Positions 21,582-37,803 of a stretch of 64,000 nucleotides of DNA are shown here, piece by piece. The first letter of the stretch is position 1, and each line of letters starts with the position of its first letter. Made by a program: the position numbers and the translations under genes. The notes under the pieces were generated by a model, which saw only the letters and a program-made list of their open reading frames with translations, ran no database searches and was not told the origin of the DNA. The DNA comes from Candidatus Acididesulfobacter guangdongensis (lineage in GTDB: Bacteria > SZUA-79 > Acidulodesulfobacterales > Acidulodesulfobacteraceae), in the NCBI GenBank assembly GCA_004195045.1, contig SGBC01000001.1, forward strand, positions 248,001 to 312,000, in the 5' to 3' direction.

Positions 21582-22676
21582 TTAACTTTTCAATTGATTT
21601 AGTTTTTCTTTAAAATCAGTTTCTCCTAAAAATTTAAACTTTATTTGACTGCTGAATGTTTTATTTTCAATATCGGCTATATATGCAGACGCATCTTTTG
21701 CAGTTTTGAATACTCCAAACATTGCCGATCCGCTGCCGGACAGCATACCGGCTTCCGCCTTTGCTTTTTTGTCCGTCCTCTGTTGAATTGTAAAATTTTT
21801 AATATCTTTCAGCACTGGATACATATCTAATATTACGTCTTCGAAATCATTTTCAAATTCCGAGCCAATGCCTAACTCGCTTAAATCGTTTAAATCCTTT
21901 AACTTGACTGCCTCGCAATAATTTTCCGCATTTATGCTGTCGGATTCATTTGCGCTGTTTGTATTTTTTAATATGTCAAGTTTAGAACTAAAGTTCAAAT
22001 TCAATATATTATAGTAATTTATTTTTTTTGTCAATACCAAATCATCAAAGGCTTCATATGCTGCTTTAGTCGATATTCCAAATTTCGGCACAATCACTGC
22101 TATGTAATATTTTTTGAGCGATTTTTCTGCTATAGGTATTATTATTTCGCCGTTTCCAGCAACAAGCGCATCTTTTTCCTTTAAAAAAAAGCTGACATCG
22201 GAACCCAATTTTACAGCGATACTGTTTAATTCGTCATAATTCAGAGGATTATTATATATTCTGTTTAAAATATTAAGCATCCCTGCGGCATCGCTTGAAC
22301 CGCCTCCCAAGCCCGCCTGCATTGGAATATTTTTTTCGACGGCGGCATTGATATATTTATTTTTTAAATTAATTTTATTAAAAAATAGATTAGAAGCTTT
22401 AATAATTAAATTATCATCGTCCGACAATTTCTTTTCAAGATTGTCTGCATATTCTTCCAATTCTTTTTTATCTAACTGCTTTAAGATAGTTTTGCCAGGA
22501 ATAACCTTAAGCTTATTTCCGTCTTCGTTTATTTTGAATGTTATTCTGTCAAAAACAGATACCCTTCTGATTATTGAAAAAATATAGTGTAAATTATTTG
22601 CGGGATTTTTTTCGCCTATTTTTAAGACAAAGTTGACCTTTGCGGGAGCCAAATAAGTATAGTTTAAATACTCCAC
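21582..22676 (-). CDS. ispE: 4-diphosphocytidyl-2-C-methyl-D-erythritol kinase
   Basis: GHMP kinase of the MEP isoprenoid pathway, phosphorylating CDP-methylerythritol. Motifs: LAPAKVNFVLKIG near the N-terminus, and the ATP-binding PMQAGLGGGSSDAAGML. The C-terminal GSGSAMFGVF segment is the third GHMP motif. The frame is open to 22754, but the extra residues are the 3' end of nuoN in another frame. GTG at 22676, giving 364 residues, puts the AKVN motif near position 15 as in the family; the exact start is uncertain because no strong Shine-Dalgarno is visible. Either way it overlaps the nuoN end slightly, linking isoprenoid synthesis, needed for quinones, to complex I expression. An Asn/Ser/Glu-rich stretch (about residues 230-270) makes it longer than usual. 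Confidence 0.9.
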   Translation of the reverse strand: MEYLNYTYLAPAKVNFVLKIGEKNPANNLHYIFSIIRRVSVFDRITFKINEDGNKLKVIPGKTILKQLDKKELEEYADNLEKKLSDDDNLIIKASNLFFNKINLKNKYINAAVEKNIPMQAGLGGGSSDAAGMLNILNRIYNNPLNYDELNSIAVKLGSDVSFFLKEKDALVAGNGEIIIPIAEKSLKKYYIAVIVPKFGISTKAAYEAFDDLVLTKKINYYNILNLNFSSKLDILKNTNSANESDSINAENYCEAVKLKDLNDLSELGIGSEFENDFEDVILDMYPVLKDIKNFTIQQRTDKKAKAEAGMLSGSGSAMFGVFKTAKDASAYIADIENKTFSSQIKFKFLGETDFKEKLNQLKS

Positions 22677-24292
22677 AATGATGTTACCGATCTGGATGCA
22701 AAACTGATAAACGGCTGAGGAAATATGCCGAGTATCAAAGTAAAAATTAAACATATAATAACGGCTATAATCAAAGCGGATGTCGTCGATTTCAGCAAAA
22801 CAGTTTCCGTTAATGCAGTCTTACTGACGATGCCGCCGGATGCGTGCGATTGCAAATCATTATCAGTATTAACGGCATTTATAATTATATTATTTCTGCC
22901 GTTTGGTAAATTTAACTGTTCGCCGTTATTGTTATTATCCGACATATACATCTTGACAATTATTTTAAGATAGTAATATGCCGCAAATGCGCTATTTAAT
23001 AACGCTATAACAACAAGCCAATAATAGCCGGATTTAATTGCGGCTGAAAACACAAAAAATTTTCCCATAAATCCCGCCGTTACGGGTATTCCCGCAAGCG
23101 ACAGCAGAAAAAAAGAAAATGCGGCGCCTGCAAGCGGATATTTATATCCCAGACCTGAATAGCTTTTTATGTCAACAGATGTTAAATTTAAATTTTCAAA
23201 CATAATAATAATTGCAAAGGCTCCAGCCGTCATAAAAACATATGCCAGCAGATAGAATAAAGTTCCTGATATCCCATAGTATCCGCCCGCTATAACGCCA
23301 ATCAATATATAACCTGCCTGAGCAATAGACGAATAAGCTATGAGCCGTTTTAAATCGGTCTGCAGCAGAGCTGCAAAATTTCCGAACGTCATCGTCAATA
23401 TTGCTAAAATCCATAAAATATTATAGAAATTAAACACGTTGAAATTATATATAGATGTAAAAACTCTAATAAAAACACCGAAAGCGGCAATTTTTATCCC
23501 TGTCGCCATAAGATTGGTAACAGGCGTCGGGGCTCCGTCATAACTGTCCGGCGTCCATGCGTGAAATGGGAATAAAGACATTTTAAATGCCAGTCCCACC
23601 AGCAGCAAAATCAATCCTATTACCAAAAAAGTATGCACATTATAAGCATGGTATAATAATTTATAATTTTGCCGAGACATAAAATTATGTATTTTATATA
23701 AACTTAAATGTCCTGTCGCGGCATATATAAAAACAGAACCGAACAATAAAAAAGCGGAGGCGAAAGTGCCGAGCACAAAGTATTTCATTGCTGCTTCGGT
23801 GCTTCTTGATTCACCTTTTAAATAACCGGTTAAAATGTAGGCGCATATAGACATAAATTCAATTGACAGAAAAATCATAATGAGGTTAATCGAAGATACT
23901 AAAAGCATCATCGCAGAAACCGAAAACAGAACGAGACTATAATACTCGGGTATTAAAACATTGCGCGTATCAAAATAATTTTTTGACATTAAAATAGTAA
24001 GAAAACCGGATAATAATATAGCCGTAAATAAAAATACATCAAATTTATCAAAAACGATTGAGCCGTAAAAACCCTTTATTGTATGGTCTGACAGCATAAA
24101 AAGATAAAGAAAAGAAAACGCAATACCTATTAAAGCCAAATAATAAGAATTTACGCTATTCTTAGAAGAGTTATTAAACAATCCTGCCAATAAAATCAAA
24201 AAAGCAAAAACTATCAGCACCGCTTCCGGCATTATACTCAGTAAACTTTTCTCAAGATAGTACCCGTTATAAATTTGCGCTAAATCAAGCAT
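22664..24292 (-). CDS. nuoN: NADH-quinone oxidoreductase subunit N
   Basis: 542 residues, a proton-pumping antiporter-like subunit of complex I with about 14 membrane helices. Motifs LSIEFMSICAYILTGYLKGESRSTEAAMKYF (conserved Glu and Lys of the channel) and FKMSLFPFHAWTPDSYDGAPTPVT are clear. A polar loop near residues 455-495 (Asn/Asp/Gly-rich) interrupts the C-terminal helices and is longer than usual. The gene overlaps nuoM by 8 bases and ispE by about a dozen. Confidence 0.95.
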   Translation of the reverse strand: MLDLAQIYNGYYLEKSLLSIMPEAVLIVFAFLILLAGLFNNSSKNSVNSYYLALIGIAFSFLYLFMLSDHTIKGFYGSIVFDKFDVFLFTAILLSGFLTILMSKNYFDTRNVLIPEYYSLVLFSVSAMMLLVSSINLIMIFLSIEFMSICAYILTGYLKGESRSTEAAMKYFVLGTFASAFLLFGSVFIYAATGHLSLYKIHNFMSRQNYKLLYHAYNVHTFLVIGLILLLVGLAFKMSLFPFHAWTPDSYDGAPTPVTNLMATGIKIAAFGVFIRVFTSIYNFNVFNFYNILWILAILTMTFGNFAALLQTDLKRLIAYSSIAQAGYILIGVIAGGYYGISGTLFYLLAYVFMTAGAFAIIIMFENLNLTSVDIKSYSGLGYKYPLAGAAFSFFLLSLAGIPVTAGFMGKFFVFSAAIKSGYYWLVVIALLNSAFAAYYYLKIIVKMYMSDNNNNGEQLNLPNGRNNIIINAVNTDNDLQSHASGGIVSKTALTETVLLKSTTSALIIAVIICLIFTLILGIFPQPFISFASRSVTSLWSI

Positions 24293-25826
24293 TGAACAAC
24301 CCCATTTTTGCTTTAATTAAATTATAAGCGTATTTATTATGTTCTATTATATTTACAAAATGAACAACGGTCGGATTTATTCTGCTTAAAAATACATCCG
24401 GATATAAACCTATGAAAAACATTAAAAAAATTAGCGGCAAAACGGTCATTATCTCTCTAAGCGTCATATCTTTAAAGTCCTCATTTTTTTGATTTGTTAT
24501 ATCCTGAAACATAACTCTTTGAAACATCCATAACAAATAAACCGCGGCAAAAATAATACCGCTTGCTGCAAATACGGTAAATATCGTATATTGTTTGAAC
24601 GACCCGACTAAAATTAAGAATTCACCGACGAACCCGTTTAATCCCGGCAGTCCGACCGAAGACAAAACAGCTATCATAAATAAGGCGGCAAAAATAGGAG
24701 CTTTTTTAGCTAAACCGCCAAAATCTGCAATAAGTCTTGTATGGCGTCTTTCGTAAAGCATTCCTACAAAAAGAAAAAGTGCGCCCGTAGAAATACCGTG
24801 ATTTATCATCTGCAGAACCGACCCGTCAACGCTGACCGCAGTCATAGCAAACAATCCGAGCATTATAAAACCCATATGGGATACGCTTGAAAAAGCGACT
24901 AATCTTTTTAAATCTTTCTGCACTATAGAAACTAATGCCCCGTATATTATGCTGATGACCGCAAGAACAAGTATGACGGGAGTGAGTATAAGCGCCGCCT
25001 CAGGCATTAAAGGAATTGCAAATCTGAAAAAACCGTAAACGCCGAACTTCAGCAAAACGCCCGCCAAAATAACGCTCCCTGCGGTAGGTGCTTCGGTATG
25101 GGCATCAGGCAGCCATGTATGAAACGGAAACACAGGTACTTTAACCGCAAACCCTAAGAATATAGCTATAAACAGGACTATTTGCAGCGTTAAGGGAATA
25201 TTAGTGTTATACAGCTTTAATAAATTAAATGTAAAATCGCCTGTTTGATTGTAATGCAATATAAATATCGTAATAAGTCCAAAAAGCATTATCAGCGAAC
25301 CGGCTAACGTATATAAGACAAATTTTACGGCTGAATAGATTCTTCTTCCCGAGCCCCACATACCTATAATAAAATACATAGGAATAAGCATAAACTCCCA
25401 GAACAGGTAAAACAGCAGAACATCTAACGAAGCAAATGTTCCGAGCATAAACGTTTCCAGCACAAGCATTAAAATAACAAATTCTTTAACGTGGTCTTTA
25501 ATATATTTATAGCTTGATAATAAAGAAACGAACGTCATAAGCGTGGTAAGCAGTATCATAAACAAACTTACACCGTCAATACCGAGAAAATAAGACGCTC
25601 CAAATTCCCTTATCCAGCTGAATCTTTCTATAAATTGAAACTCATAAGTATTTGACTTAAAGTATATAAATAAAAATAGAGAAATTACAAATTCTGCTAA
25701 TGACAAAACAGTAGCAAGGTTTCTCAACAGCCCTTCCGCCTTTTTATTTACGAAAACCAATATAAGGGCGGACAGCAGAGGAAAAAAAATTATTATCGAT
25801 AAAATATACTTTAAAAAAATACTCAT
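24285..25826 (-). CDS. nuoM: NADH-quinone oxidoreductase subunit M
   Basis: 513 residues with about 14 membrane helices. Channel residues occur in LVLETFMLGTFASLDVLLFYLFWEFMLIPMYFIIG, and the FPFHTWLPDAHTEAPTAGSVILAGVLLKFGVYG signature is the classic NuoM segment with its conserved Lys. It is the middle antiporter-like subunit of the membrane arm, preceded by nuoL across a 250-base spacer and overlapping nuoN. Confidence 0.96.
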   Translation of the reverse strand: MSIFLKYILSIIIFFPLLSALILVFVNKKAEGLLRNLATVLSLAEFVISLFLFIYFKSNTYEFQFIERFSWIREFGASYFLGIDGVSLFMILLTTLMTFVSLLSSYKYIKDHVKEFVILMLVLETFMLGTFASLDVLLFYLFWEFMLIPMYFIIGMWGSGRRIYSAVKFVLYTLAGSLIMLFGLITIFILHYNQTGDFTFNLLKLYNTNIPLTLQIVLFIAIFLGFAVKVPVFPFHTWLPDAHTEAPTAGSVILAGVLLKFGVYGFFRFAIPLMPEAALILTPVILVLAVISIIYGALVSIVQKDLKRLVAFSSVSHMGFIMLGLFAMTAVSVDGSVLQMINHGISTGALFLFVGMLYERRHTRLIADFGGLAKKAPIFAALFMIAVLSSVGLPGLNGFVGEFLILVGSFKQYTIFTVFAASGIIFAAVYLLWMFQRVMFQDITNQKNEDFKDMTLREIMTVLPLIFLMFFIGLYPDVFLSRINPTVVHFVNIIEHNKYAYNLIKAKMGLFNA

Positions 25827-26080: not shown

Positions 26081-27964
26081 TCATCTTACAAAATAATAAG
26101 CCAGCAGCGCTATGACTCCGACTGTCAACGTAAAAACGTAGCTCATTAACATTCCGTTTTGCACCTTTCTTACTTTTGACGAGGTAACGCTTATCCATTG
26201 CGCTATGCCGTTCACGGCGCCGTCTATAACAAATGAATCCACCACTCTCCATAAAAAAACAGAAAAATTTTTCATAGGTCTGACAATAGCAAAATCGTAT
26301 ATTTCGTCAATATATAATTTATTGAATGAAAGAGCATATACAGTCTTAAATCTTTTCTTGAGCATTTCTAAATCAAAAGATTTTTTTATATAAAAAACAT
26401 ATGCCACATATATTCCGCTAAGACCTGCGATAACGGAAACTGTACTCAGCAGATACCACGGATAATTATTTACCGCCGGAGAAAAATTAAATGAATTCGC
26501 AAAATCTCTGTTTATAAAGTTATAAAATATAGAATGGTCAAACGGAGGCATGCCTATAAAACCAAACACGGCTGCAAAGCAAGCCAATATTATCAGCGGT
26601 ATAGTCATCACGTTCGGAGATTCATGAACATGCAAATTTTTATCTACATGGGATTCACCGAAAAAAACATTAAAAATAAGCCTGAAAATATAAAATGCGG
26701 TCATAAATGCAGCGAGTTCTCCTATAATCCAGAAGAAGTAATCTCCTTTATTAAATAGAGCAGCAAGTATCGCATCTTTGCTGAAAAACCCTGAAAAAGG
26801 AGGTATTCCGGACAGGGCAAGACCGCCGACAATGAAAGTAATAGCAGTTTTCTTCATCTTTGAATATAAACCGCCCATTTTTCTTAAATCAAGCTCGCCG
26901 CTCATTCCGTGCATTACGCTGCCTGCAGTTAAAAACAAAAGACCTTTGAATATAGCGTGCGATACTAAATGAAATATGCCTGCGGCATAAGAACCTATTC
27001 CGACAGCCATGAACATATAGCCCAGCTGACTTATAGTCGAGTATGCGATTATTCGTTTTATATCAAACTGGGTCATAGCAATAAAAGCTGCAATAAAAGC
27101 GGTTGTGCCTCCTATTATCAGTACGACATCGGAAGCGTCAGGAGAATAAGAAAATATAATATGGCATCTTGCTATAAGATATACGCCCGCCGTTACCATA
27201 GTTGCGGCATGAATAAGCGCGCTGACCGGAGTCGGACCTTCCATAGCATCCGGCAGCCAGACGTGAAGAGGAAATTGCGCTGATTTACCGATTGCTCCGG
27301 CAAACAGCAATAAAGCAATAGTTGTAATAAGATAGGGCGGCAATAAATGTATTCCGGAAAAAACGGATGAGTAGCTTAACGTACCCATATTTACAAATAT
27401 AAGCATCACTCCGAGAGCAAACCCGAAATCGCCTATCCTATTCACAATAAAAGCTTTTTTGCCGGCATTGGATGCAGATTTTTTTTCGTACCAGAAACCG
27501 ATTAGGATATACGAACAGAATCCGACTGCTTCCCAGAAAACATACAGCAATAAAAAATTATTTGCCATTATCAGCATTATCATTGAAAATACAAATAAAT
27601 TCAAATAAGAAAAATATCTTGCAAAACCTTTATCGTCTTTCATATATCCAATTGAATAAATATGGACTAAAGAGCTGATGCCGGTTACCATTACCAGCAT
27701 TATCACAGACAGTCTGTCAATAGTAGTGGATATATTAATTTTAAAATATGAAGCGTCAATCCAGGGATACAGAGTAGAGGTAAAACTGTGCCCGTAAGCT
27801 ACCATAAAAAAAATTACGGTTGAAAGTATAAATGAAATAACGATGAATACGCTTCCTAAATATCCCGAATAATTTTTAAAATATTTCCCGAAAACTCCCC
27901 ATAAGATTGCGCCGAGGAGCGGAAAAAAAGGAATCAGCCAAACTATTAAATCTTTTGAATTCAT
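26081..27964 (-). CDS. nuoL: NADH-quinone oxidoreductase subunit L
   Basis: 627 residues. This is the distal antiporter-like subunit, with the lateral helix near the C-terminus that braces the membrane arm. Motifs: LLLYVFWEAVGFCSYILIGFWYEK, GAIGKSAQFPLHVWLPDAMEGPTPVSALIHAATMVTAGVYLIAR (the strongest NuoL signature), and FSKDAIL. It follows nuoK by 146 AT-rich bases. Length and channel Glu/Lys residues look complete. Confidence 0.96.
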   Translation of the reverse strand: MNSKDLIVWLIPFFPLLGAILWGVFGKYFKNYSGYLGSVFIVISFILSTVIFFMVAYGHSFTSTLYPWIDASYFKINISTTIDRLSVIMLVMVTGISSLVHIYSIGYMKDDKGFARYFSYLNLFVFSMIMLIMANNFLLLYVFWEAVGFCSYILIGFWYEKKSASNAGKKAFIVNRIGDFGFALGVMLIFVNMGTLSYSSVFSGIHLLPPYLITTIALLLFAGAIGKSAQFPLHVWLPDAMEGPTPVSALIHAATMVTAGVYLIARCHIIFSYSPDASDVVLIIGGTTAFIAAFIAMTQFDIKRIIAYSTISQLGYMFMAVGIGSYAAGIFHLVSHAIFKGLLFLTAGSVMHGMSGELDLRKMGGLYSKMKKTAITFIVGGLALSGIPPFSGFFSKDAILAALFNKGDYFFWIIGELAAFMTAFYIFRLIFNVFFGESHVDKNLHVHESPNVMTIPLIILACFAAVFGFIGMPPFDHSIFYNFINRDFANSFNFSPAVNNYPWYLLSTVSVIAGLSGIYVAYVFYIKKSFDLEMLKKRFKTVYALSFNKLYIDEIYDFAIVRPMKNFSVFLWRVVDSFVIDGAVNGIAQWISVTSSKVRKVQNGMLMSYVFTLTVGVIALLAYYFVR

Positions 27965-28110: not shown

Positions 28111-28416
28111 TTACATTTTTAATTCATTTGCTTTGTCTATGTCTATTGTGCCTTTTTCCCTATAAAAAGCAATGGCAATCCCCAGTAAAATTGCCGCTTC
28201 GGCAGCAGCTACAACCATAATAAATATAACGAAAATATCGCCGCTTATTAAATTTAAATGCTCAGAAACGGCAACAAAGCCTAAATTTGCAGCGTTAAAC
28301 ATTAATTCTAAACTCAGAAAAATTGTTATAAGATTTTTCCTTATCAAAACGCCTAACGCGCCTATGCAAAAGATAATTGAAGCCACCGCCAGATAATCAT
28401 TTACGTTCACGTTCAT
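28111..28416 (-). CDS. nuoK: NADH-quinone oxidoreductase subunit K
   Basis: 101 residues with three membrane helices. The second helix has SLELMFNAANLGFV, and the third VVAAAEAAILLGIAIAFYREKGTIDIDKANELK; both carry the conserved Glu residues of the proton path. It lies between nuoJ and nuoL as in most nuo operons. Confidence 0.95.
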   Translation of the reverse strand: MNVNVNDYLAVASIIFCIGALGVLIRKNLITIFLSLELMFNAANLGFVAVSEHLNLISGDIFVIFIMVVAAAEAAILLGIAIAFYREKGTIDIDKANELKM

Positions 28417-28492: not shown

Positions 28493-28990
28493 TTATTTTT
28501 TAGCAAAAATATAAGCGCCTATAACTGCAACCAGCAGTAAAATTGAAGCTACCTCAAACGGAAAAACATACTTGGTAAATAAAAATTGACCTATGATTTG
28601 CGTATTTCCTATTTTATTAATTACCGCATTAGTATAAATACCCGTAGGTTTACTCTCGCCGGCAGCATTAAGATATAATATGACCTCTGCAAATAGCAGC
28701 AAAACGGCTACGATGCCCACAGCCATCTGGTGAAAATCTTTAATAGTATCTTTAGCCTTAGCCAGATTAAGCAGCATAATGACTAAAACTATAAGAACTA
28801 TTATTGCTCCTGCATAAACTAAAATCTGCATGGCAGCCAGAAATTGCATATTCAGAAGAATATAAAATCCAGCCAGAGCAAAAAAACATAATATAATGTA
28901 CAGCGCAGATGTTAAAGGATTTTTTACCAATATCACCATCAGCGCAGAAAAAATTGCAATTATTGAAAATACATAAAAAAGCGCTTCCAA
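28493..28990 (-). CDS. nuoJ: NADH-quinone oxidoreductase subunit J
   Basis: 165 residues with five membrane helices. AAMQILVYAGAIIVLIVLVIMLLNL is the family's third helix, the pi-bulge region coupling quinone reduction to pumping. The C-terminal helix FEVASILLLVAVIGAYIFAKK is typical. It lies between nuoI and nuoK. Confidence 0.95.
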   Translation of the reverse strand: MEALFYVFSIIAIFSALMVILVKNPLTSALYIILCFFALAGFYILLNMQFLAAMQILVYAGAIIVLIVLVIMLLNLAKAKDTIKDFHQMAVGIVAVLLLFAEVILYLNAAGESKPTGIYTNAVINKIGNTQIIGQFLFTKYVFPFEVASILLLVAVIGAYIFAKK

Positions 28991-29058: not shown

Positions 29059-29166
29059 AAAATTACAATTATAGCTTAATTAATTTATCTATTCCAAATA
29101 TTCCTTTCACTTAACATAAAAATTACAATTATAGCTTAATTAATTTATCTATTCCAAATATTCCTT
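29059..29166. repeat. 60-bp-period duplication of the nuoI 3' end
   Basis: A 48-base sequence at 29119-29166, covering the last codons and stop of nuoI, is repeated at 29059-29106 with a 60-base offset. The downstream copy is a noncoding duplicate of the gene end. Confidence 0.92.
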
Positions 29167-29641
29167 CATCTCTTGTATAAAATCCAAACTCAAACTTGTC
29201 AGACATACTTATGGCTTCTTCCGGACAAATCTCTTCGCAATAGCCGCAGCATATACACCTCAGCAAATCAATTTCAAATGACTCCGGATGCCTTCTTCCG
29301 TCATTAACGACGCCGGGGGCTATTTTATCCAAACTATGGTTATGTTTCTGTCTTTCCGTAAGCTCATGTTCTTTTCCATAATCTACAAAGCCCGAATTTA
29401 TTTTTATAGCTTCTGAAGGACAAACAGTTTGGCACAGCATACATGCAACGCATCTCAACGATTTGTCTTTATTGGTATTGAGTTTCGGAAATCCCCTGAA
29501 ATTTTCTGCCAATCTCAGACGTTCTTTAGGATATTGAAAGGTAACGGGTTTTTTAAAAAAAGTCCCCATAGTCGTTTTCAATCCTATAAGAAAGTTTTTC
29601 GATATTAATATTAGCGAATTTTCTTCTTTTTTAGTATCCAT
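29129..29641 (-). CDS. nuoI: NADH-quinone oxidoreductase subunit I
   Basis: 170 residues with two ferredoxin-type 4Fe-4S motifs, CVACMLCQTVCP and CICCGYCEEICP, carrying clusters N6a and N6b of the peripheral arm. They pass electrons from NuoG to NuoB. The RLRLAENFRGFP segment before the first cluster is the NuoI family signature. The N-terminal amphipathic helix lies on the membrane. The 3' end is duplicated downstream. Confidence 0.95.
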   Translation of the reverse strand: MDTKKEENSLILISKNFLIGLKTTMGTFFKKPVTFQYPKERLRLAENFRGFPKLNTNKDKSLRCVACMLCQTVCPSEAIKINSGFVDYGKEHELTERQKHNHSLDKIAPGVVNDGRRHPESFEIDLLRCICCGYCEEICPEEAISMSDKFEFGFYTRDEGIFGIDKLIKL

Positions 29642-29696: not shown

Positions 29697-30683
29697 CTAT
29701 TTTCCCAATAGTATCATTATAAATCCGGTAACAACAATATTTGCCAGCGCTAAAGGAAGCAGAATCTTCCATCCCAGATCCATAAGTTCATCATATCTCA
29801 ACCTCGGATATGTCCATCTGAACCATATATAAATGAGTATTACGGCAAAAACTTTTAATGCGAACCATAAAACCGAAGGAAGAAACGGTCCTTCCCATCC
29901 GCCAAGAAAAAGCGTGGTGATGATAGCAGAATTGACTACTATCTGCGCATATTCTCCTATAAAGTAAAATGCAAATTTCATACTTGAATATTCCGTATGA
30001 AAACCGGCAACCAACTCGCCTTCCGCCTCGCCAAGATCGAACGGCACCCTGTTCATTTCAGCCGTTGAAGCAATTAAATAAATTAAAAATCCGACGGGCT
30101 GATAAACTATAAACCACATATGCGCCTGCGATGAAACAATCTGCGCCAGACTCAAATTTCCCGCTATCATAATTACGCCTATTATTGAAAGAGCGAGAGA
30201 CAGTTCGTAACTTATCATCTGAGCAGCGGTTCTTATGGCTCCCAGCAATGAATATTTGCTGTTTGATGCCCAGCCTCCTATTACCACGCCGTATATTCCC
30301 AGCGACGAAAGCGCCAATATAAACAATATGCCTATATTTACGTTTGTAATCTGCAGAGGAACAACGTGCCCCAATATTGTTATCGGAGCTCCGAAAGGAA
30401 TAACCGCAAATGTCGTCAATGCAGGAATAACAACAATAATAGGCGCAAGAATAAATAATATTCTATTAGCGTCGGCGGGTATAATATCTTCTTTGAAGAA
30501 CAGTTTTATACCGTCCGCTATAGGCTGCAGCATTCCGTGGAAACCTGCTTCCATCGGTCCAAGCCTATTTTGTATGCGGGCTGCTACCTTGCGCTCTAAA
30601 AGCGTCAGATAGGCTGCCGACAGAAGCAGCACTCCGAATACAAGCAATATTTTTATCAATGTTGTTATTAACCAGAATATCAT
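29697..30683 (-). CDS. nuoH: NADH-quinone oxidoreductase subunit H
   Basis: 328 residues with eight membrane helices. It forms the heel of complex I and much of the quinone channel. Signatures: LLERKVAARIQNRLGPMEAG (first cytoplasmic loop), DGIKLFFKEDIIP, and EMNRVPFDLGEAEGELVAGFHTEYS with the conserved acidic residues; WTYPRLRYDELMDLGWK near the end. Spacing to nuoI is 55 bases. Confidence 0.96.
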   Translation of the reverse strand: MIFWLITTLIKILLVFGVLLLSAAYLTLLERKVAARIQNRLGPMEAGFHGMLQPIADGIKLFFKEDIIPADANRILFILAPIIVVIPALTTFAVIPFGAPITILGHVVPLQITNVNIGILFILALSSLGIYGVVIGGWASNSKYSLLGAIRTAAQMISYELSLALSIIGVIMIAGNLSLAQIVSSQAHMWFIVYQPVGFLIYLIASTAEMNRVPFDLGEAEGELVAGFHTEYSSMKFAFYFIGEYAQIVVNSAIITTLFLGGWEGPFLPSVLWFALKVFAVILIYIWFRWTYPRLRYDELMDLGWKILLPLALANIVVTGFIMILLGK

Positions 30684-30767: not shown

Positions 30768-32909
30768 TTAATAAAATAACTTGCCGGCATCATTATAATA
30801 AAACTTACTTTTTGGTTTAATTTTATTAAAATGGATTATTTTATTTGCTTTAATCATTTCTAAAAATTGAGCGGATATATCGCCTGTATTAAATGAAATT
30901 CCGAGTTTATCGGACAAATCATCTAAAACTGCGGCTATGCCGTATCTATATTCTCCCAAATTAAACTCATTGCTTATATGAATCGTCTTGCCTTCAAAAT
31001 TTTCAAAATACCCGTCTTTATGTTCTAAAAAATCCTGCACAGGCAAAACAATATCTGCCATGGCGGTTATACTGCTTATTTTTGAAGATAAAGCGGCGAC
31101 AAAGTTTAAATCGGTAATATATCGCGACAATTTCAAGCCGTGGACATTATGCTCCGGTTCTTCATAATCGCCGATATAAATTAAATTTTTAATCTGCCCG
31201 GTTTCTATTCCGCCAATAATATTTTCATAAGATAAATATTCATCTTTGCTATTTATTCCGGCCGCAATAAGACCTCTGTAATTGAAAGGTTTTATAAGAG
31301 GAAAAACATAGACTATTTTTTGTTCGTCTCTTGAGAAACCTGTAATTTCCTTAAGTATCAGCATTTCTTTGTCTCTTCCCGCCAAAGACATGAAATTATC
31401 GCCTAAAATAATAGATATAGTATTATTTTTAAGAATAGCGTCAACTGATTCGTCGGTTTTTTTAAAATTAAAATCATAAAGATTTTGCCTCAGTTCATTT
31501 AGATATTTATGCAAATCACCGTCATAATCTTTATTTATATCAATTTTTAATGATGCTATATCTTCAAATCTTGCAAAATTTTCACTTCTTTTTTTGGCAT
31601 TGGCATCTGAAATATCTATTAAAATTAATTTGCCGCCGTGTTCTCTATGGCTCTTCATGATATTATAGGAAGCATAAGGTATTTCATCCTCAATTGAACC
31701 TATATATAAAACAAAGTCAGAATTTTGAATAGCATTGATTTCAAAATTTTCTTCAGATTTAAATATCTCTTTAAATTTCAAATAATTTTTACGGTAAAAA
31801 CTTGTTTTGTCTATATCAAAACCCGCAGGTTTCAAAACATCTTTAACAAAATTTGAAATTAAATAGCCGTCATTCGTAGAAACCGATGAAGAAACTATTA
31901 CGGCAGTTTTGTTCATCTCATTATTTTGTATAATATTTTTCAATCTGTCAGCCAAATGGTTTAACGCACCTGTATAATCGCTATTTGAAAAATCAGATTT
32001 TATTTTTACTAAAGGATTTTTAATATAATAATCGTCGTCTTTTAAATTTTTGCCTATAGCGTCGTAAAAAAATCCGCTCCTGCAAAGATATCCGCCGAAT
32101 GCGGCGGCAGTCCTGACGAGAGATTCGTCTTTAGCATACCTGTAGTATTCAACTCTGCAGGCGGCGGAACATTTGTTGCACACCGAAGAAAACGGCGATT
32201 CCTGCCAGTATCTTTCTTTAAATTTTGACTGTTTTGGCAGCAGCGCCCCCACTGGACAAACTTCTATACAATTGCCGCAATAATAACAGTCTAAATAATT
32301 CTTATCATTTTTTATCTCTACAAAAGAGCTGCCTATTGGAACCGCTCCTTTTTCTATTTTATCTTCGTGCTTTAATCCTATATAACCGTTATATCCTTTG
32401 TCTTTTATTTCTAAAAATGGGTTTCCGTACATATCGGAACAGACTCTTATGCACCTTGAACATAGAACGCATCTCGTTGCGGTATATTCTATAATATCGC
32501 TTTTAAAAATTTGCGTCCTGTCCGGATATAATTTTTTATTTTTTTGAACGGTAAGTCCAAATTCAAAAGATAAATCCTGCAGCAGACAGTCGCCTGATTT
32601 ATCGCAGACGGGACAATCTAAAGGGTGGTCTAATAAGAGATGCGAAAGCGACCCTTTCCTGACTTCCCAAACTTTATCGGTATCGGTAAATATTTCATAA
32701 CCTTCTTTTACCCGAGCAACACATGCCGGCAATGTATGTTTAATACCTTTAACCTCAACGGAGCATATCCTGCATGAACCGATAGGTCTTAATCTTCTCA
32801 GATAACATAAAACAGGTATTCTGATGCCTGCCTGAGAAGCGGCTTCAAGTATCGTAAGCCCCGTCTTCGTCATCACTTTTTTTCCGTTTATAGTTATTTC
32901 TATATCCAT
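30768..32909 (-). CDS. nuoG: NADH-quinone oxidoreductase subunit G
   Basis: 713 residues. The N-terminal 2Fe-2S ligands are Cys35, Cys46, Cys49 and Cys63 (N1b). His95, Cys99, Cys102 and Cys108 bind N5. Cys147-x2-Cys150-x2-Cys153-x3-Cys157 and the later CYYCGNCIEVCP complete two ferredoxin-type clusters. CNKCSAAC with a distant Cys (GGYLCRSG) is the molybdopterin-type 4Fe-4S site seen in NuoG that carries N7. The rest is a degenerate molybdopterin-oxidoreductase domain without cofactor function. It follows the hybrid flavoprotein gene after 62 bases and should take electrons from it. Confidence 0.93.
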   Translation of the reverse strand: MDIEITINGKKVMTKTGLTILEAASQAGIRIPVLCYLRRLRPIGSCRICSVEVKGIKHTLPACVARVKEGYEIFTDTDKVWEVRKGSLSHLLLDHPLDCPVCDKSGDCLLQDLSFEFGLTVQKNKKLYPDRTQIFKSDIIEYTATRCVLCSRCIRVCSDMYGNPFLEIKDKGYNGYIGLKHEDKIEKGAVPIGSSFVEIKNDKNYLDCYYCGNCIEVCPVGALLPKQSKFKERYWQESPFSSVCNKCSAACRVEYYRYAKDESLVRTAAAFGGYLCRSGFFYDAIGKNLKDDDYYIKNPLVKIKSDFSNSDYTGALNHLADRLKNIIQNNEMNKTAVIVSSSVSTNDGYLISNFVKDVLKPAGFDIDKTSFYRKNYLKFKEIFKSEENFEINAIQNSDFVLYIGSIEDEIPYASYNIMKSHREHGGKLILIDISDANAKKRSENFARFEDIASLKIDINKDYDGDLHKYLNELRQNLYDFNFKKTDESVDAILKNNTISIILGDNFMSLAGRDKEMLILKEITGFSRDEQKIVYVFPLIKPFNYRGLIAAGINSKDEYLSYENIIGGIETGQIKNLIYIGDYEEPEHNVHGLKLSRYITDLNFVAALSSKISSITAMADIVLPVQDFLEHKDGYFENFEGKTIHISNEFNLGEYRYGIAAVLDDLSDKLGISFNTGDISAQFLEMIKANKIIHFNKIKPKSKFYYNDAGKLFY

Positions 32910-32971: not shown

Positions 32972-34879
32972 TTATTTTTTGAATGTTATAAGCATCATCA
33001 TGTAACACCTCATGCATCGCGTGGCTTCATACACAACGTCGTCAGCCGTAAATCCTTTTTCCACCTCCGTAAAATTGCTTATACGGTTTTCAATTTTCTC
33101 CTGAATCTGTTCCGGCGGAAAATTACCTTCCGGAAAATCAGGATAATCTATTACTTCATTTTTATCATAAACGCCTAATTTCTCAAGAAAATGTTCAAAA
33201 ACATCGTCGTCTGTTATGTTAAAAGTTCCGGTTCGGACGTACTCGTCTATTCTTTTCGCCGCCGTTTTACCGTCTCTGTTTGAATTTACTATGCTTATAG
33301 GTCCCGTCATCGCGTCGCCGCCTGCGAAAACACCCGGCATATCAGTCATATTTGTATATTCGTCAACTACAATTGTCTCCCGCTTAGTCGATTTTATTTC
33401 GGGAGTATCTTTCAGAAAATCAAGATCCGGTACCTGACCTACCGCCATAATAAAAGAATCGCAGTCTATATCAAACTCGGAACCTGGTATTTCAACAGGA
33501 CTTCTCCTTCCGCTGGCATCAGGTTCGCCTAATTTCATGCGGCGGCACTTAACACCGCTGACTGAGCCGTTTTCGTTTATTATAGCTATCGGATTCGTCA
33601 AGAATTCAAATTTGACCCCTTCCTCAATTGCGGTATCGACTTCATAAGCAGCGGCCGGCATCTGTTCCCTTGCCCTTCTATAGACTACCACTACTTCCTT
33701 AAAACCTAATCTCAAAGCTGTTCTGCAGCAGTCCATAGCAACATTTCCGCCGCCTTCTATTATTACTTTTTTTCCTATTTTTATATGATTTCCTAAGGCA
33801 ACATCCCTTAAGAACTTAACACCTTCAAAAAAACCTTTCAGATTATCGCTTTCCCCGGGCAGACCTATAGTTTGACCTTTATGCGCGCCTACTGCTAAAT
33901 AGACCGCTTTAAATCCATCGTTAAACAGATCTTTTATGGAAAAATCCTTTCCCAATCTTTTATCGGTTTTATAATCTATACCTGCAGAAAGTATATAGTT
34001 AATTTCTTTGTCTAATAATTCCTGCGTAAGCCTGTATTTTGGTATTCCGACATTCATCATACCGCCTAAAACCGGAAGAGCTTCAAAAATAACCGGCATA
34101 TAGCCCATCAGCCTGAGATAATATGCGCAGCTCAACCCTGCAGGACCTGAACCTATTACGGCTATTTTAATACCGTTGTCTTTAATATCAAACTTCGGTT
34201 TAATATCGGTATAAAATTCATTATCTGCAGCGTAACGCCTTATTAAGCATATCTGAATCGGTTTATCCAAGTTTGCCCTGCGGCAGTTATCCTGACAAGG
34301 ATGAAAACATGACCTGCCGAGAATAGCTGCTAACGGAGTATTTCTGCGGACAGATTCAAGAGCGTCTTCATACCTTCCGTCCCTGACCCTTTCAATCCAG
34401 TTGGGAATATCTAATTTTGAAGGACATCCATTAATGCATGGAGCCGTTATTTTTGTGATGTAATCGCCCTTATGTATTATTTCTTTATTTAATATCGCTT
34501 TCTCAAAATCTTCTCTGAAATTTTCTATTAACTCCTTGACGGCGGTCGGTCCCATTGTGCCTACCGTGCATTTAGATGCGGACATTATCCATTCGCATTC
34601 TTTTTGTAAATTGTCCAAGTCTTGTATGTCGGCCTTTCCGCTGCAGATTTTTTCAAGAAGCTCCAAAGCTACCGATGTTCCGATTCTGCACGGAATACAG
34701 ACGCCGCAGGAAAGTTTCTGCAGCTCGGCCATATAGCATCTCGCAAGGTCAATTTTATTATCTTCGTCGCTGAGCAAGGCGATGCCGCTCCAGTTTAACA
34801 CGGAAGATATTTGACCGCGGCCAGATGGTTTGAAGGCTTCTATATCTATTTTCTTTTCATACTTGTCAACTAAATTCAT
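32972..34879 (-). CDS. NuoF-FeS / GltD-like hybrid flavoprotein in complex I operon
   Basis: 635 residues at the position where nuoE and nuoF normally stand. About residues 45-125 match only the C-terminal 4Fe-4S (N3) domain of NuoF: Cys58-x2-Cys61-x2-Cys64 in LSCGVCIPCRIG, and Cys104. The FMN and NADH domains of NuoF are absent. About residues 140-215 match the two-cluster N-terminal domain of GltD/NfnB (Cys148, Cys152, Cys191, Cys195, Cys199). Residues about 236-600 are a two-dinucleotide-binding flavoprotein: FAD site VIGSGPAGLS, NAD(P) site IIEGGGNVAMD, and a final PGVFAGGDAMTGP. A C-terminal RCMRC (622-625) may bind more iron. I infer an NAD(P)H-oxidising input module feeding NuoG. Pyridine nucleotide specificity is not determinable by eye. 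Confidence 0.88.
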   Translation of the reverse strand: MNLVDKYEKKIDIEAFKPSGRGQISSVLNWSGIALLSDEDNKIDLARCYMAELQKLSCGVCIPCRIGTSVALELLEKICSGKADIQDLDNLQKECEWIMSASKCTVGTMGPTAVKELIENFREDFEKAILNKEIIHKGDYITKITAPCINGCPSKLDIPNWIERVRDGRYEDALESVRRNTPLAAILGRSCFHPCQDNCRRANLDKPIQICLIRRYAADNEFYTDIKPKFDIKDNGIKIAVIGSGPAGLSCAYYLRLMGYMPVIFEALPVLGGMMNVGIPKYRLTQELLDKEINYILSAGIDYKTDKRLGKDFSIKDLFNDGFKAVYLAVGAHKGQTIGLPGESDNLKGFFEGVKFLRDVALGNHIKIGKKVIIEGGGNVAMDCCRTALRLGFKEVVVVYRRAREQMPAAAYEVDTAIEEGVKFEFLTNPIAIINENGSVSGVKCRRMKLGEPDASGRRSPVEIPGSEFDIDCDSFIMAVGQVPDLDFLKDTPEIKSTKRETIVVDEYTNMTDMPGVFAGGDAMTGPISIVNSNRDGKTAAKRIDEYVRTGTFNITDDDVFEHFLEKLGVYDKNEVIDYPDFPEGNFPPEQIQEKIENRISNFTEVEKGFTADDVVYEATRCMRCYMMMLITFKK

Positions 34880-35021: not shown

Positions 35022-36221
35022 TTATCTGTCTATCTCGCCCAGCAGTATATCAATACTTCCTAGTATTGAAACAAGGTCGGCAAGCAAATGTCCTTTCGCC
35101 ATTTTATTTAACGCGCTGACATTGCAGAAAGACGGCGGTCTAACCCTCATTCTGTAAGGAAAAGCGGAACCGTCGGATATCATATAATACCCTAGCTCGC
35201 CGCGCGGATTTTCAATTGATACATAAGCTTCTCCTTTAGGCGGTTTAATACCCTCCATTCCGTATTTAAACAATGAGATCATACCTTCCATAGTAGTCAG
35301 CGCTCTTTTTTTTGGCGGTATGACATATAACGGATATGCGTCATAGTTCAGGTATTCGCCATCCGGAATATTTTCTAAAGCCTGGTGCACAATCTTCAAA
35401 CTTTGCCTCATCTCTTCCATTCTCACAATGTACCGGTCGTAAACATCGCCGACGTCACCTATCGGAATGTCAAAATCGAAATCTTCATAACTTGAATAAG
35501 GATTTATTTTTCTTACATCGTATTTTAACCCGCTCCCTCTTAAACAAGGACCCGTAAGAGCAAAATTAACTGCATCCTCTTTAGAAATTATGCCGACATT
35601 TTTAGTTCTCTCAAACCAGATTTTGTTATTTGTTAAAAGCGCTTCATACTGGTTTATTTTTTCAGGAAATATTTTTATAAAATCTCGTGTTTTTTCAACA
35701 AAATCTTTATGAATATCTTTTGCAAGCCCGCCTACTCTGAAAAAAGACGGCGTCATCCTTGCGCCGGTTAATGTTTCAATCAGGTCTAATACGAGTTCTC
35801 TTTCTCTAAAACAATAAAGAAATTCAGTCAGCGCTCCAAGGTCTACGGCGTGTGTTCCAAGCCACACTAAATGCGAACTTATCCTTGTAAGTTCTGCCAG
35901 AATAACCCTGACATATTCAGCGCGTTTTGTAGCTTTAACACCGCACAATTTTTCAACGGTCAATATATATCCTAAATTATTAGAAGCGCCGGAGACATAG
36001 TCCATTCTGTCCGTAATGGTTTCTGCCTGATGATATGTTCTGAACTCTGCATATTTTTCCATACTTGTATGCAGATAGCCGATAATAGGCTCGGCATGCA
36101 CGACCGTCTCTCCGTCTAATTGAACGACAATTCTGAGCACCCCGTGCGTACTCGGATGCTGAGGTCCTATATTCACTACAAAATTTTCGACGTCAATAAG
36201 AAAATCTTTATATTCAAACAT
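35022..36221 (-). CDS. nuoD: NADH-quinone oxidoreductase subunit D
   Basis: 399 residues, the 49-kDa subunit related to NiFe-hydrogenase large subunits but without its metal site. Signatures: NIGPQHPSTHGVLRIVVQLDGE at the quinone site (conserved His and Tyr in the neighbouring segments), GYLHTSMEKYAE, and the C-terminal SCNVSAL-type RPPSFCNVSALNKMAKGHLLADLVSILGSIDILLGEIDR. It lies between nuoC and the hybrid flavoprotein. Confidence 0.96.
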   Translation of the reverse strand: MFEYKDFLIDVENFVVNIGPQHPSTHGVLRIVVQLDGETVVHAEPIIGYLHTSMEKYAEFRTYHQAETITDRMDYVSGASNNLGYILTVEKLCGVKATKRAEYVRVILAELTRISSHLVWLGTHAVDLGALTEFLYCFRERELVLDLIETLTGARMTPSFFRVGGLAKDIHKDFVEKTRDFIKIFPEKINQYEALLTNNKIWFERTKNVGIISKEDAVNFALTGPCLRGSGLKYDVRKINPYSSYEDFDFDIPIGDVGDVYDRYIVRMEEMRQSLKIVHQALENIPDGEYLNYDAYPLYVIPPKKRALTTMEGMISLFKYGMEGIKPPKGEAYVSIENPRGELGYYMISDGSAFPYRMRVRPPSFCNVSALNKMAKGHLLADLVSILGSIDILLGEIDR

Positions 36222-36305: not shown

Positions 36306-36845
36306 CTATTTATTTCCAAATTCTTTTTCTTCAAGAAAGCCCGGAGCGTCGAAATTTAATTCTTCTACAGCCGGTCTTTTTCTTAAAGGATAGTCTTTTA
36401 ACAGAGGATGTCCATCCCAATCCTCAGGATTAAGAATGCGCTTAAGATGAGGATGTCCTTTGAACTTTAAGCCGAATAAGTCATAAACCTCTCTTTCAAA
36501 CCAGTTGGCAGACTCATAGATTGAGGTTAAACTCGGATAATCTGGTTCATCTATTTTGCTCTGGCATTTAACAAATATTCTAAAATTATTTTTAGTAGAA
36601 TATAAATTGTATATAACTTCAATTCTTTCATTTCTTTTTGGATAATCAACTCCGAAAAGGTCAGAAAGCATATCAAAATTAAGCCTTGAATCTTCTTTCA
36701 TAAATTTGACTAATTCAATCAAATTTTCTTTTGTCGTTGTTATGCGCACGTCATCATTAGAAGTATCGGTTGAAATTATATACTTCTGCATTACATTTTT
36801 AATTACGCTTAGCGCAAAAAACGTTTCCATGTCTTCACTGTTCAT
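36306..36845 (-). CDS. nuoC: NADH-quinone oxidoreductase subunit C
   Basis: 179 residues, the 30-kDa subunit. Signatures: DLFGVDYPKRNERIEVIYNLYS and SIYESANWFEREVYDLFGLKFKGHPHLKRIL, followed by HPLLKDYPL. It carries no cofactor and packs against NuoD. It is a separate protein here, not fused to NuoD as in Escherichia coli. Confidence 0.95.
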   Translation of the reverse strand: MNSEDMETFFALSVIKNVMQKYIISTDTSNDDVRITTTKENLIELVKFMKEDSRLNFDMLSDLFGVDYPKRNERIEVIYNLYSTKNNFRIFVKCQSKIDEPDYPSLTSIYESANWFEREVYDLFGLKFKGHPHLKRILNPEDWDGHPLLKDYPLRKRPAVEELNFDAPGFLEEKEFGNK

Positions 36846-36982: not shown

Positions 36983-37453
36983 CTATCTTTTTAAAGTTCC
37001 TTTTTCAATTTTTTCCTGTAATTTAACGATACCGTAAATAAGAGCTTCGGGACGCGGAGGGCACCCCGGCACATAAACATCTACCGGTATAATCTGATCT
37101 ACGCCCTGAACAACGCTGTAAACATTAAACAATCCGCCTGAACAAGCGCAATCGCCCATTGCGATTACCCATTTAGGATTAGGCATCTGGTCATAAAGTC
37201 TTTTTACTACAGGCGCCATTTTGTAAGAAACTCTGCCTGAAACTATCATTAAATCAGATTGTCTCGGAGTTGAGCGGAATATCAGTCCAAGACGGTCAAT
37301 GTCATACCTGGACGACGCCGTCGTCATCATTTCAATAGCGCAGCAGGCTAAGCCGAAAGTAGCAGGCCATATAGACCATTTTCTTCCCCACGAAACCAAT
37401 TTGTCTAAAGCGGCGGTAAGAACATTGTCTCCCAGGTTATCTTCTAATCCCAT
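36983..37453 (-). CDS. nuoB: NADH-quinone oxidoreductase subunit B
   Basis: 156 residues. The terminal cluster N2 ligands are the adjacent Cys37-Cys38 ([10 protein letters not shown]), Cys102 (MGDCACSGG) and Cys131 (PGCPPRPE), all present. It passes electrons to quinone. The start codon overlaps the nuoA end by 10 bases. Confidence 0.96.
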
Positions 37454-37803
37454 TTAAGCGCTCCTTTTTTCCATACATAGATAAGTCCAAAAACCAAAAT
37501 GGCAATAAATAGAAACATTTCAACAAAGCCGTACAAGCCGAGACTTGAAAACACGACTGCCCATGGAAATAAAAATAATGCTTCTATATCGAACAATAAA
37601 AAAAATATTGCGATTAAATAAAATTTAATATCAAACCTGGCGTGCGGCTCTCCGATAGGTTCAATGCCGCATTCATACGCCTTTAGTTTGCCTTTTTCGT
37701 AAGTTTTTTTGCCCAAAAGCGAGGAAAAAACTATCGTAAAAACTGCAAACAATATAGCAATTACAAGCATTATCAAAATAGGCAAAAACGAATTCTGTTC
37801 CAT
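37444..37803 (-). CDS. nuoA: NADH-quinone oxidoreductase subunit A
   Basis: 119 residues with three membrane helices. The loop [44 protein letters not shown] is the family signature, with the conserved Cys of the active/deactive loop and the Asp/Glu pair in helix 2. It is the first gene of the nuo operon, 180 bases after pepA, with a plausible promoter in between. Confidence 0.95.

Follow-up and report, generated by a model that had tools for sequence, protein, structure and literature searches.

Complex I is taken to be specific for NADH, with FMN as its entry flavin. By which route do electrons enter a complex I whose gene cluster holds a GltD-like flavoprotein in the place of NuoE and NuoF? 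The question is raised by a stretch of 64,000 nucleotides (the window) from Candidatus Acididesulfobacter guangdongensis, of the phylum Candidatus Acidulodesulfobacteriota, whose members are uncultured acid-mine bacteria.

Gene content of the nuo cluster

The window contains 13 co-directional genes on the minus strand, namely 12 nuo genes (nuoA-D and nuoG-N) and a gene for a 635-aa fusion protein, in the order A-B-C-D-fusion-G-H-I-J-K-L-M-N and with intergenic gaps of -10 to 254 bp. The genes nuoA (37444..37803), nuoB (36983..37453), nuoC (36306..36845), nuoH (29697..30683) and nuoI (29129..29641) were recognised by profile and Pfam matches, NuoB scoring above the TIGR01957 cut-off, and NuoD (35022..36221) reached 534 bits against TIGR01962, for which the cut-off is 459. 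The gene nuoJ (28493..28990, start codon TTG) was named by its size, its position and matches from relatives, and the open reading frames of nuoK (28111..28416), nuoL (26081..27964), nuoM (24285..25826) and nuoN (22664..24292) were likewise matched from relatives. The core subunits NuoA-D and NuoH-N are thus encoded together, and by the curated cut-offs NuoB and NuoD are of the quinone type and not of the hydrogenase type. An earlier note on this DNA had described a nuo operon with A, B, C, D and G-N intact, and all 12 genes do lie on one strand together with the fusion.

The fusion gene (32972..34879) is located between nuoD and nuoG (30768..32909). NuoG carries the 2Fe-2S (N1b), N5, N4 and N7 motifs and an additional CxxCxxCxxxCP motif, and matches the NuoG family along most of its length with 264 bits, a score below the curated cut-off of 470, so that its fit with the fusion is one that we infer. 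A Pfam search of the cluster detected neither Complex1_51K nor 2Fe-2S_thioredx, that is, neither NuoE nor an FMN/NADH-binding NuoF.

Domain structure and conservation of the fusion protein

Three Pfam domains were identified in the fusion protein: NADH_4Fe-4S at residues 44-127 (E 1e-19), Fer4_20 at 145-222 (5e-21) and Pyr_redox_2 at 238-536 (9e-31). Neither Complex1_51K (PF01512, the FMN/NADH Rossmann domain) nor 2Fe-2S_thioredx was found by Pfam in the protein, and the match to the NuoF profile starts at profile position 305 of 410, which indicates that just the N3 end of NuoF is kept. These data agree with the claim of the earlier note that NuoE is absent and NuoF is cut down to its N3 domain, fused to a GltD-type module. 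All GltD models match the fusion below their curated cut-offs, so by score it is not a glutamate synthase small subunit.

The N3 domain (PF10589; 34499..34750, minus strand, as are all segments of the gene) has C58, C61, C64 and C104 as ligands. It is followed by the Fer4_20 domain (34214..34447), with cysteines 148, 152, 191, 195 and 199 and with R214 at the position of the non-cysteine ligand of the FAD-proximal cluster, and by the FAD/NAD(P) module of two Rossmann folds (33272..34168), with the motifs GSGPAG, GGGNVA and YRR (400-402). The C-terminal segment, residues 593-625 (33005..33103), ends in EATRCMRC and contributes two cluster cysteines, C622 and C625, in a permuted position; it aligns with residues 10-42 of Thermotoga maritima NfnL, the N-terminal segment of that protein, and the same permutation is found in StnC and NfnABC. 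All of these cysteines are kept in the 24 phylum sequences, and YRR, a motif which the alignment shows to be common to the NADPH-binding NfnL, NfnABC and StnC, does not vary among the 71 sequences compared (24 from the phylum and 47 other relatives). We also observed that 33/33 fusions associated with complex I, versus 4/38 others, have a cysteine at C211 (34247-34249), beside the FAD-proximal cluster; it may be an alternative cluster ligand.

The AF2 model of the fusion (pLDDT 91.5, pTM 0.89) matches known structures in both of its parts: the GltD part matches NfnABC subunit A, StnC and NfnL with Z from 41 to 30, and the isolated N3 part (residues 20-140) matches the C-terminal domains of NuoF from respiratory complexes I with Z 13-16. 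A codon comparison with three close relatives gave dN/dS values of 0.025-0.065, showing that the fusion is under strong purifying selection. By its architecture (N3, Fer4_20, Pyr_redox_2 and a permuted C-terminal RCxxC) the fusion is of the SfrB type.

Distribution in Candidatus Acidulodesulfobacteriota

The fusion gene was found in 28 of the 30 genomes of the phylum. From the two genomes without it, which are 86% and 59% complete, the NuoD of this complex I is missing too, their NuoD-like matches being weaker and of the hydrogenase type; in the fusion-bearing genomes this NuoD is single-copy and adjoins the fusion. The closest named relative, with 75% identity, is that of Candidatus Acididesulfobacter diazotrophicus AP1, placed by NCBI in Candidatus Acidulodesulfobacteriota. 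Comparison with the relatives, a check proposed in the earlier note, revealed that the nuoD-fusion-nuoG slot, the nuoEF slot of the operon, is occupied by the fusion in 23/23 related phylum loci, with the order A-B-C-D-fusion-G-H-I-J-K-L-M-N kept as far as the contigs reach. A gene present in 28/30 genomes and in one slot at all 23 loci is not the product of chance or of an assembly artefact. A paper on this order described nuo as nearly complete except for nuoE, nuoF and nuoG (PMC6776010). Our data correct this published absence, since both the window and AP1 (L015) contain nuoG and the input is encoded by a fusion that had not been recognised.

The constant neighbourhood also bears on whether the fusion belongs to complex I at all. 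The fusion and NuoG could form a separate, soluble NADPH oxidoreductase like SfrAB, leaving the other 11 subunits as a headless complex I with ferredoxin as its donor; SfrAB is a precedent for such a soluble enzyme of two subunits (PMC7483475), and headless complexes I of 11 subunits are known in other bacteria (PMC11238625). We consider this arrangement very unlikely, as both genes lie within the nuo cluster, in the canonical order, at every phylum locus, the N3 domain keeps all four cysteines, and NuoG keeps its 2Fe-2S, N5, N4 and N7 motifs and resembles its family along most of its length.

Other NuoE/NuoF genes

A single NuoE/NuoF-type gene was detected in the genome of the window. It encodes a protein of 663 aa, which holds the only Complex1_51K and 2Fe-2S_thioredx domains of that genome, and the gene that follows it encodes a formate dehydrogenase alpha subunit (TIGR01591, 833 bits, above the curated cut-off). 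Given this FdhA neighbour, the 663-aa protein is most likely a formate dehydrogenase beta subunit. Across the phylum, Complex1_51K is present in 18/30 genomes and absent from 12/30, and is absent in 7 of the 19 high-quality genomes; in the other phylum genomes, all 12 Complex1_51K loci examined are paired with an FdhA-type gene. The earlier note had named an intact nuoEF elsewhere in the genome as the finding that would count against it. Our search yielded just the formate dehydrogenase copy, and none at all in seven high-quality relatives, and we therefore rejected a canonical NuoEF encoded elsewhere as the source of electrons for the nuo operon. Together, these results support the view that NuoE and NuoF of the sole complex I of the phylum have been replaced by the N3-GltD fusion.

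The beta subunit itself (L004:8538-10529) is a NuoE-NuoF fusion with inserts rich in Asn, Lys and Asp, and its NuoE part has no cysteine set for N1a. In some relatives, NuoB/NuoD-like genes beside the formate dehydrogenase (L089, L091, L096) were considered as a second complex I and rejected, because on a fuller reading they resemble group 4 hydrogenase clusters. At L097, L098 and L102, which gave this fuller reading, the formate dehydrogenase genes adjoin a group 4 hydrogenase-like cluster with NuoB-, NuoD- and NuoL/M-like genes. Such clusters suggest a formate hydrogenlyase in these relatives.

Electron donor and direction of electron flow

The replacement of NuoE and NuoF by the N3-GltD fusion implies that the entry flavin should be FAD and not FMN, and a flavoprotein of the NADPH type in the place of NuoEF indicates that this complex I probably runs on NADPH instead of NADH. 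We propose, with good though not full confidence, that the fusion stands in for NuoE plus NuoF as the subunit through which electrons enter complex I, and that the whole is in effect a proton-pumping NADPH:quinone oxidoreductase. NADPH would give a hydride to the FAD of the GltD-type module, which would split the electron pair and pass single electrons to the proximal [4Fe-4S] cluster, the distal [4Fe-4S] cluster and N3. The retained NuoF domain would dock its N3 on NuoG as NuoF does, and electrons would then travel through the NuoG clusters, NuoI and NuoB to quinone, with proton pumping to follow. The assembly with NuoG, the FAD content, the preference for NADPH and the direction of flow are parts of the proposal that we infer from the sequences.

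The known SfrB-type subunits are in line with this proposal. They are known or proposed as NADPH-side partners of a soluble reductase, of hydrogenases and of formate dehydrogenase: one is the beta subunit, and the input, of the NADPH-dependent formate dehydrogenase of Moorella (PMC13040438), and another is the input of SfrAB, a soluble NADPH-dependent enzyme of two subunits (PMC7483475). NADPH is the nucleotide of those SfrB-type enzymes that have been studied (PMC13040438, PMC7483475).

The same architecture might nonetheless accept NADH, or either nucleotide, giving an FAD-based NADH:quinone complex I. Searches of the phylum genomes found no PntB and no NqrA, and for RnfC they returned just weak and partial RnfC_N matches in frames of about 640 aa, which are probably biotinyl-like domains; Rnf was therefore rejected as a route for NADH. 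These searches for NqrA, PntB and RnfC uncovered no dedicated alternative route from NADH to quinone, so that an outlet for NADH would be required. Such an outlet, into NADPH, is offered by NfnSL, which in the genome of the window (L146:3498-5965) matches the solved NfnAB/NfnI with E 1e-170 and 1e-102 and keeps the bifurcating Glu; adjacent NfnS-NfnL pairs occur in 24/30 phylum genomes. Together with the invariant YRR motif, shared with NADPH-binding proteins, and with the use of NADPH by the SfrB-type enzymes characterised to date, this makes NADH an unlikely donor. The earlier note had left the choice between NADPH and NADH open while proposing FAD instead of FMN: the sequence supports FAD as the probable entry flavin, and homology favours NADPH over NADH. 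In the NADPH-driven complex, NADH would feed in indirectly through NfnSL (NADH + reduced ferredoxin + 2 NADP+ -> 2 NADPH).

Another reading has the same input subunit and differs in direction alone. Here the complex would work mainly in reverse, quinol and the proton-motive force reducing NADP+ through the fusion for biosynthesis, and NfnSL would then supply NADH and reduced ferredoxin. The components could in principle run either way, a proposal of sulfide oxidation exists for this order (PMC10504309), and with PntB not found the usual source of NADPH driven by the proton-motive force is missing. No feature of the sequence fixes the direction, however, and the order also has cytochrome bd, with oxygen respiration via complex I having been proposed (PMC6776010). 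Mainly reverse flow is possible, but we regard it as rather doubtful next to NADPH oxidation. NfnSL could serve both directions, converting NADH and reduced ferredoxin to NADPH that the complex oxidises, or drawing on NADPH that the complex, run in reverse, makes from quinol.

Absence of the bifurcating glutamate

The earlier note had also raised bifurcation-like chemistry. In favour of it, the fusion shares its fold with NfnL and has several clusters. One ligand of the FAD-proximal cluster of NfnL is a Glu (PMC10482914, PMC9503767), but the aligned residue is Arg (R214) in all 24 sequences of the phylum and Lys in all 47 of the remaining relatives. StnC has Lys at this position and its FAD is non-bifurcating, the K170R variant retaining about half of the activity (PMC10482914). 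With Arg in place of Glu, bifurcation at the FAD of the fusion is unlikely. No NfnS-like gene was found in the nuo cluster; the NfnS of the genome sits outside it, with a separate, Glu-bearing NfnL. Flavin-based electron bifurcation by the fusion within complex I is therefore extremely improbable, and this part of the claim is not supported.

Relatives outside the phylum

Relatives with 40-44% identity, here called group II, were found in Nitrospinota, Desulfobacterota, Spirochaetota and some 'Deltaproteobacteria' bins, with the gene order fusion-NuoG-A-B-C-D-H-I-J-K-L-M-N. Every group II genome examined also has a Complex1_51K gene, present in one Nitrospinota genome as a short fragment only, and in several of them it is clearly part of a canonical complex I with NuoD, NuoE and NuoF. 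Among Nitrospinota, 7/77 genomes match at E <= 1e-120, and in six of these the copies are close to one another (80-100% identity). Other relatives adjoin SfrA/NuoG-like or FdhA genes, without complex I; relatives in such surroundings have identities of 33-44%.

In the tree of the fusion, the phylum sequences form one supported clade, which joins group II with 93% SH-aLRT on long branches. The NuoD tree did not recover a single shared origin of the phylum and group II complexes I; in this tree, with a canonical sampling of just 3-5 rows, a canonical Spirochaete sequence groups with group II on long branches.

In four of nine group II fusions, Gly stands where the N3 ligand C64 would be (SCGKCYSGRIG in L027, a Nitrospinota sequence; also L028), which indicates that N3 may have lost a ligand in these proteins. 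We also detected proteins of 830-870 aa or longer (L107, L115, L118) that combine NuoF, including its FMN domain (Complex1_51K), with a GltD-like module; they are a possible evolutionary intermediate or another type of input. One Nitrospinota group II operon (L139) has two consecutive NuoL-like genes of 492 and 612 aa.

Comparison with known electron-input modules

Our literature search, which covered openly accessible papers, returned no description of this fusion within complex I. Compared with the canonical complex I of 14 subunits (NuoA-N), the other subunits and the order A-B-C-D-[input]-G-H-I-J-K-L-M-N are equal, whereas NuoE, the FMN/NADH domain of NuoF and N1a are absent and a single fused GltD-type input takes their place. 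The headless complexes I of 11 subunits (Desulfitobacterium, cyanobacterial NDH-1) also lack NuoE and NuoF, but they lack NuoG as well and are thought to use ferredoxin or other partners, while the present cluster encodes NuoG together with a dedicated flavoprotein.

SfrB and the SfrB-type beta subunit of Moorella are GltD-like subunits that oxidise NADPH, as is proposed for the fusion, and their partner is either similar to NuoG or a formate dehydrogenase (PMC7483475, PMC13040438); they serve soluble reductases or formate dehydrogenase, whereas the fusion gene takes the place of nuoEF in the operon of a membrane complex I. StnC of StnABC and NfnA of NfnABC (PDB 8oh5, 9bov, 9n5u) resemble the fusion in that their GltD module has the same C-terminal RCxxC and a Lys or Arg at the ligand position of the proximal cluster, and in that electrons pass by clusters like those of NuoG to an N3 of the NuoF type. 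They differ in that their GltD module is joined to NuoG and bifurcation takes place in a complete NuoF with FMN, whereas here the module is fused to the N3 remnant and the FMN subunit is absent. NfnL has the same FAD/NADPH fold, with about 40% identity, but differs by its Glu at the proximal cluster, its NfnS partner and its unpermuted cysteines. A possibly related case is NUO-2 of Nitrospina gracilis and Kuenenia, whose NuoF2 has no FMN site, keeps N3 and has extra clusters (PMC3578206); it was read as ferredoxin-linked, unlike the NADPH input proposed here.

Implications for the phylum

For the phylum as a whole, we lean slightly towards a scheme in which its sole complex I is a proton-pumping NADPH:quinone oxidoreductase, reversible to NADP+ reduction driven by the proton-motive force, and NfnSL links the pool of NADH with that of ferredoxin. 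The energy roles of NADH and NADPH would then be swapped, and a transhydrogenase of the PntAB type would be unneeded. The nuoD-fusion-nuoG order, R214 and C211 provide markers for finding such complexes elsewhere. An FAD/NADPH entry fixed across the phylum would show that the N-module is exchangeable in both nucleotide and flavin, and such a replacement would offer a natural means of testing why NADH is the usual donor of complex I.
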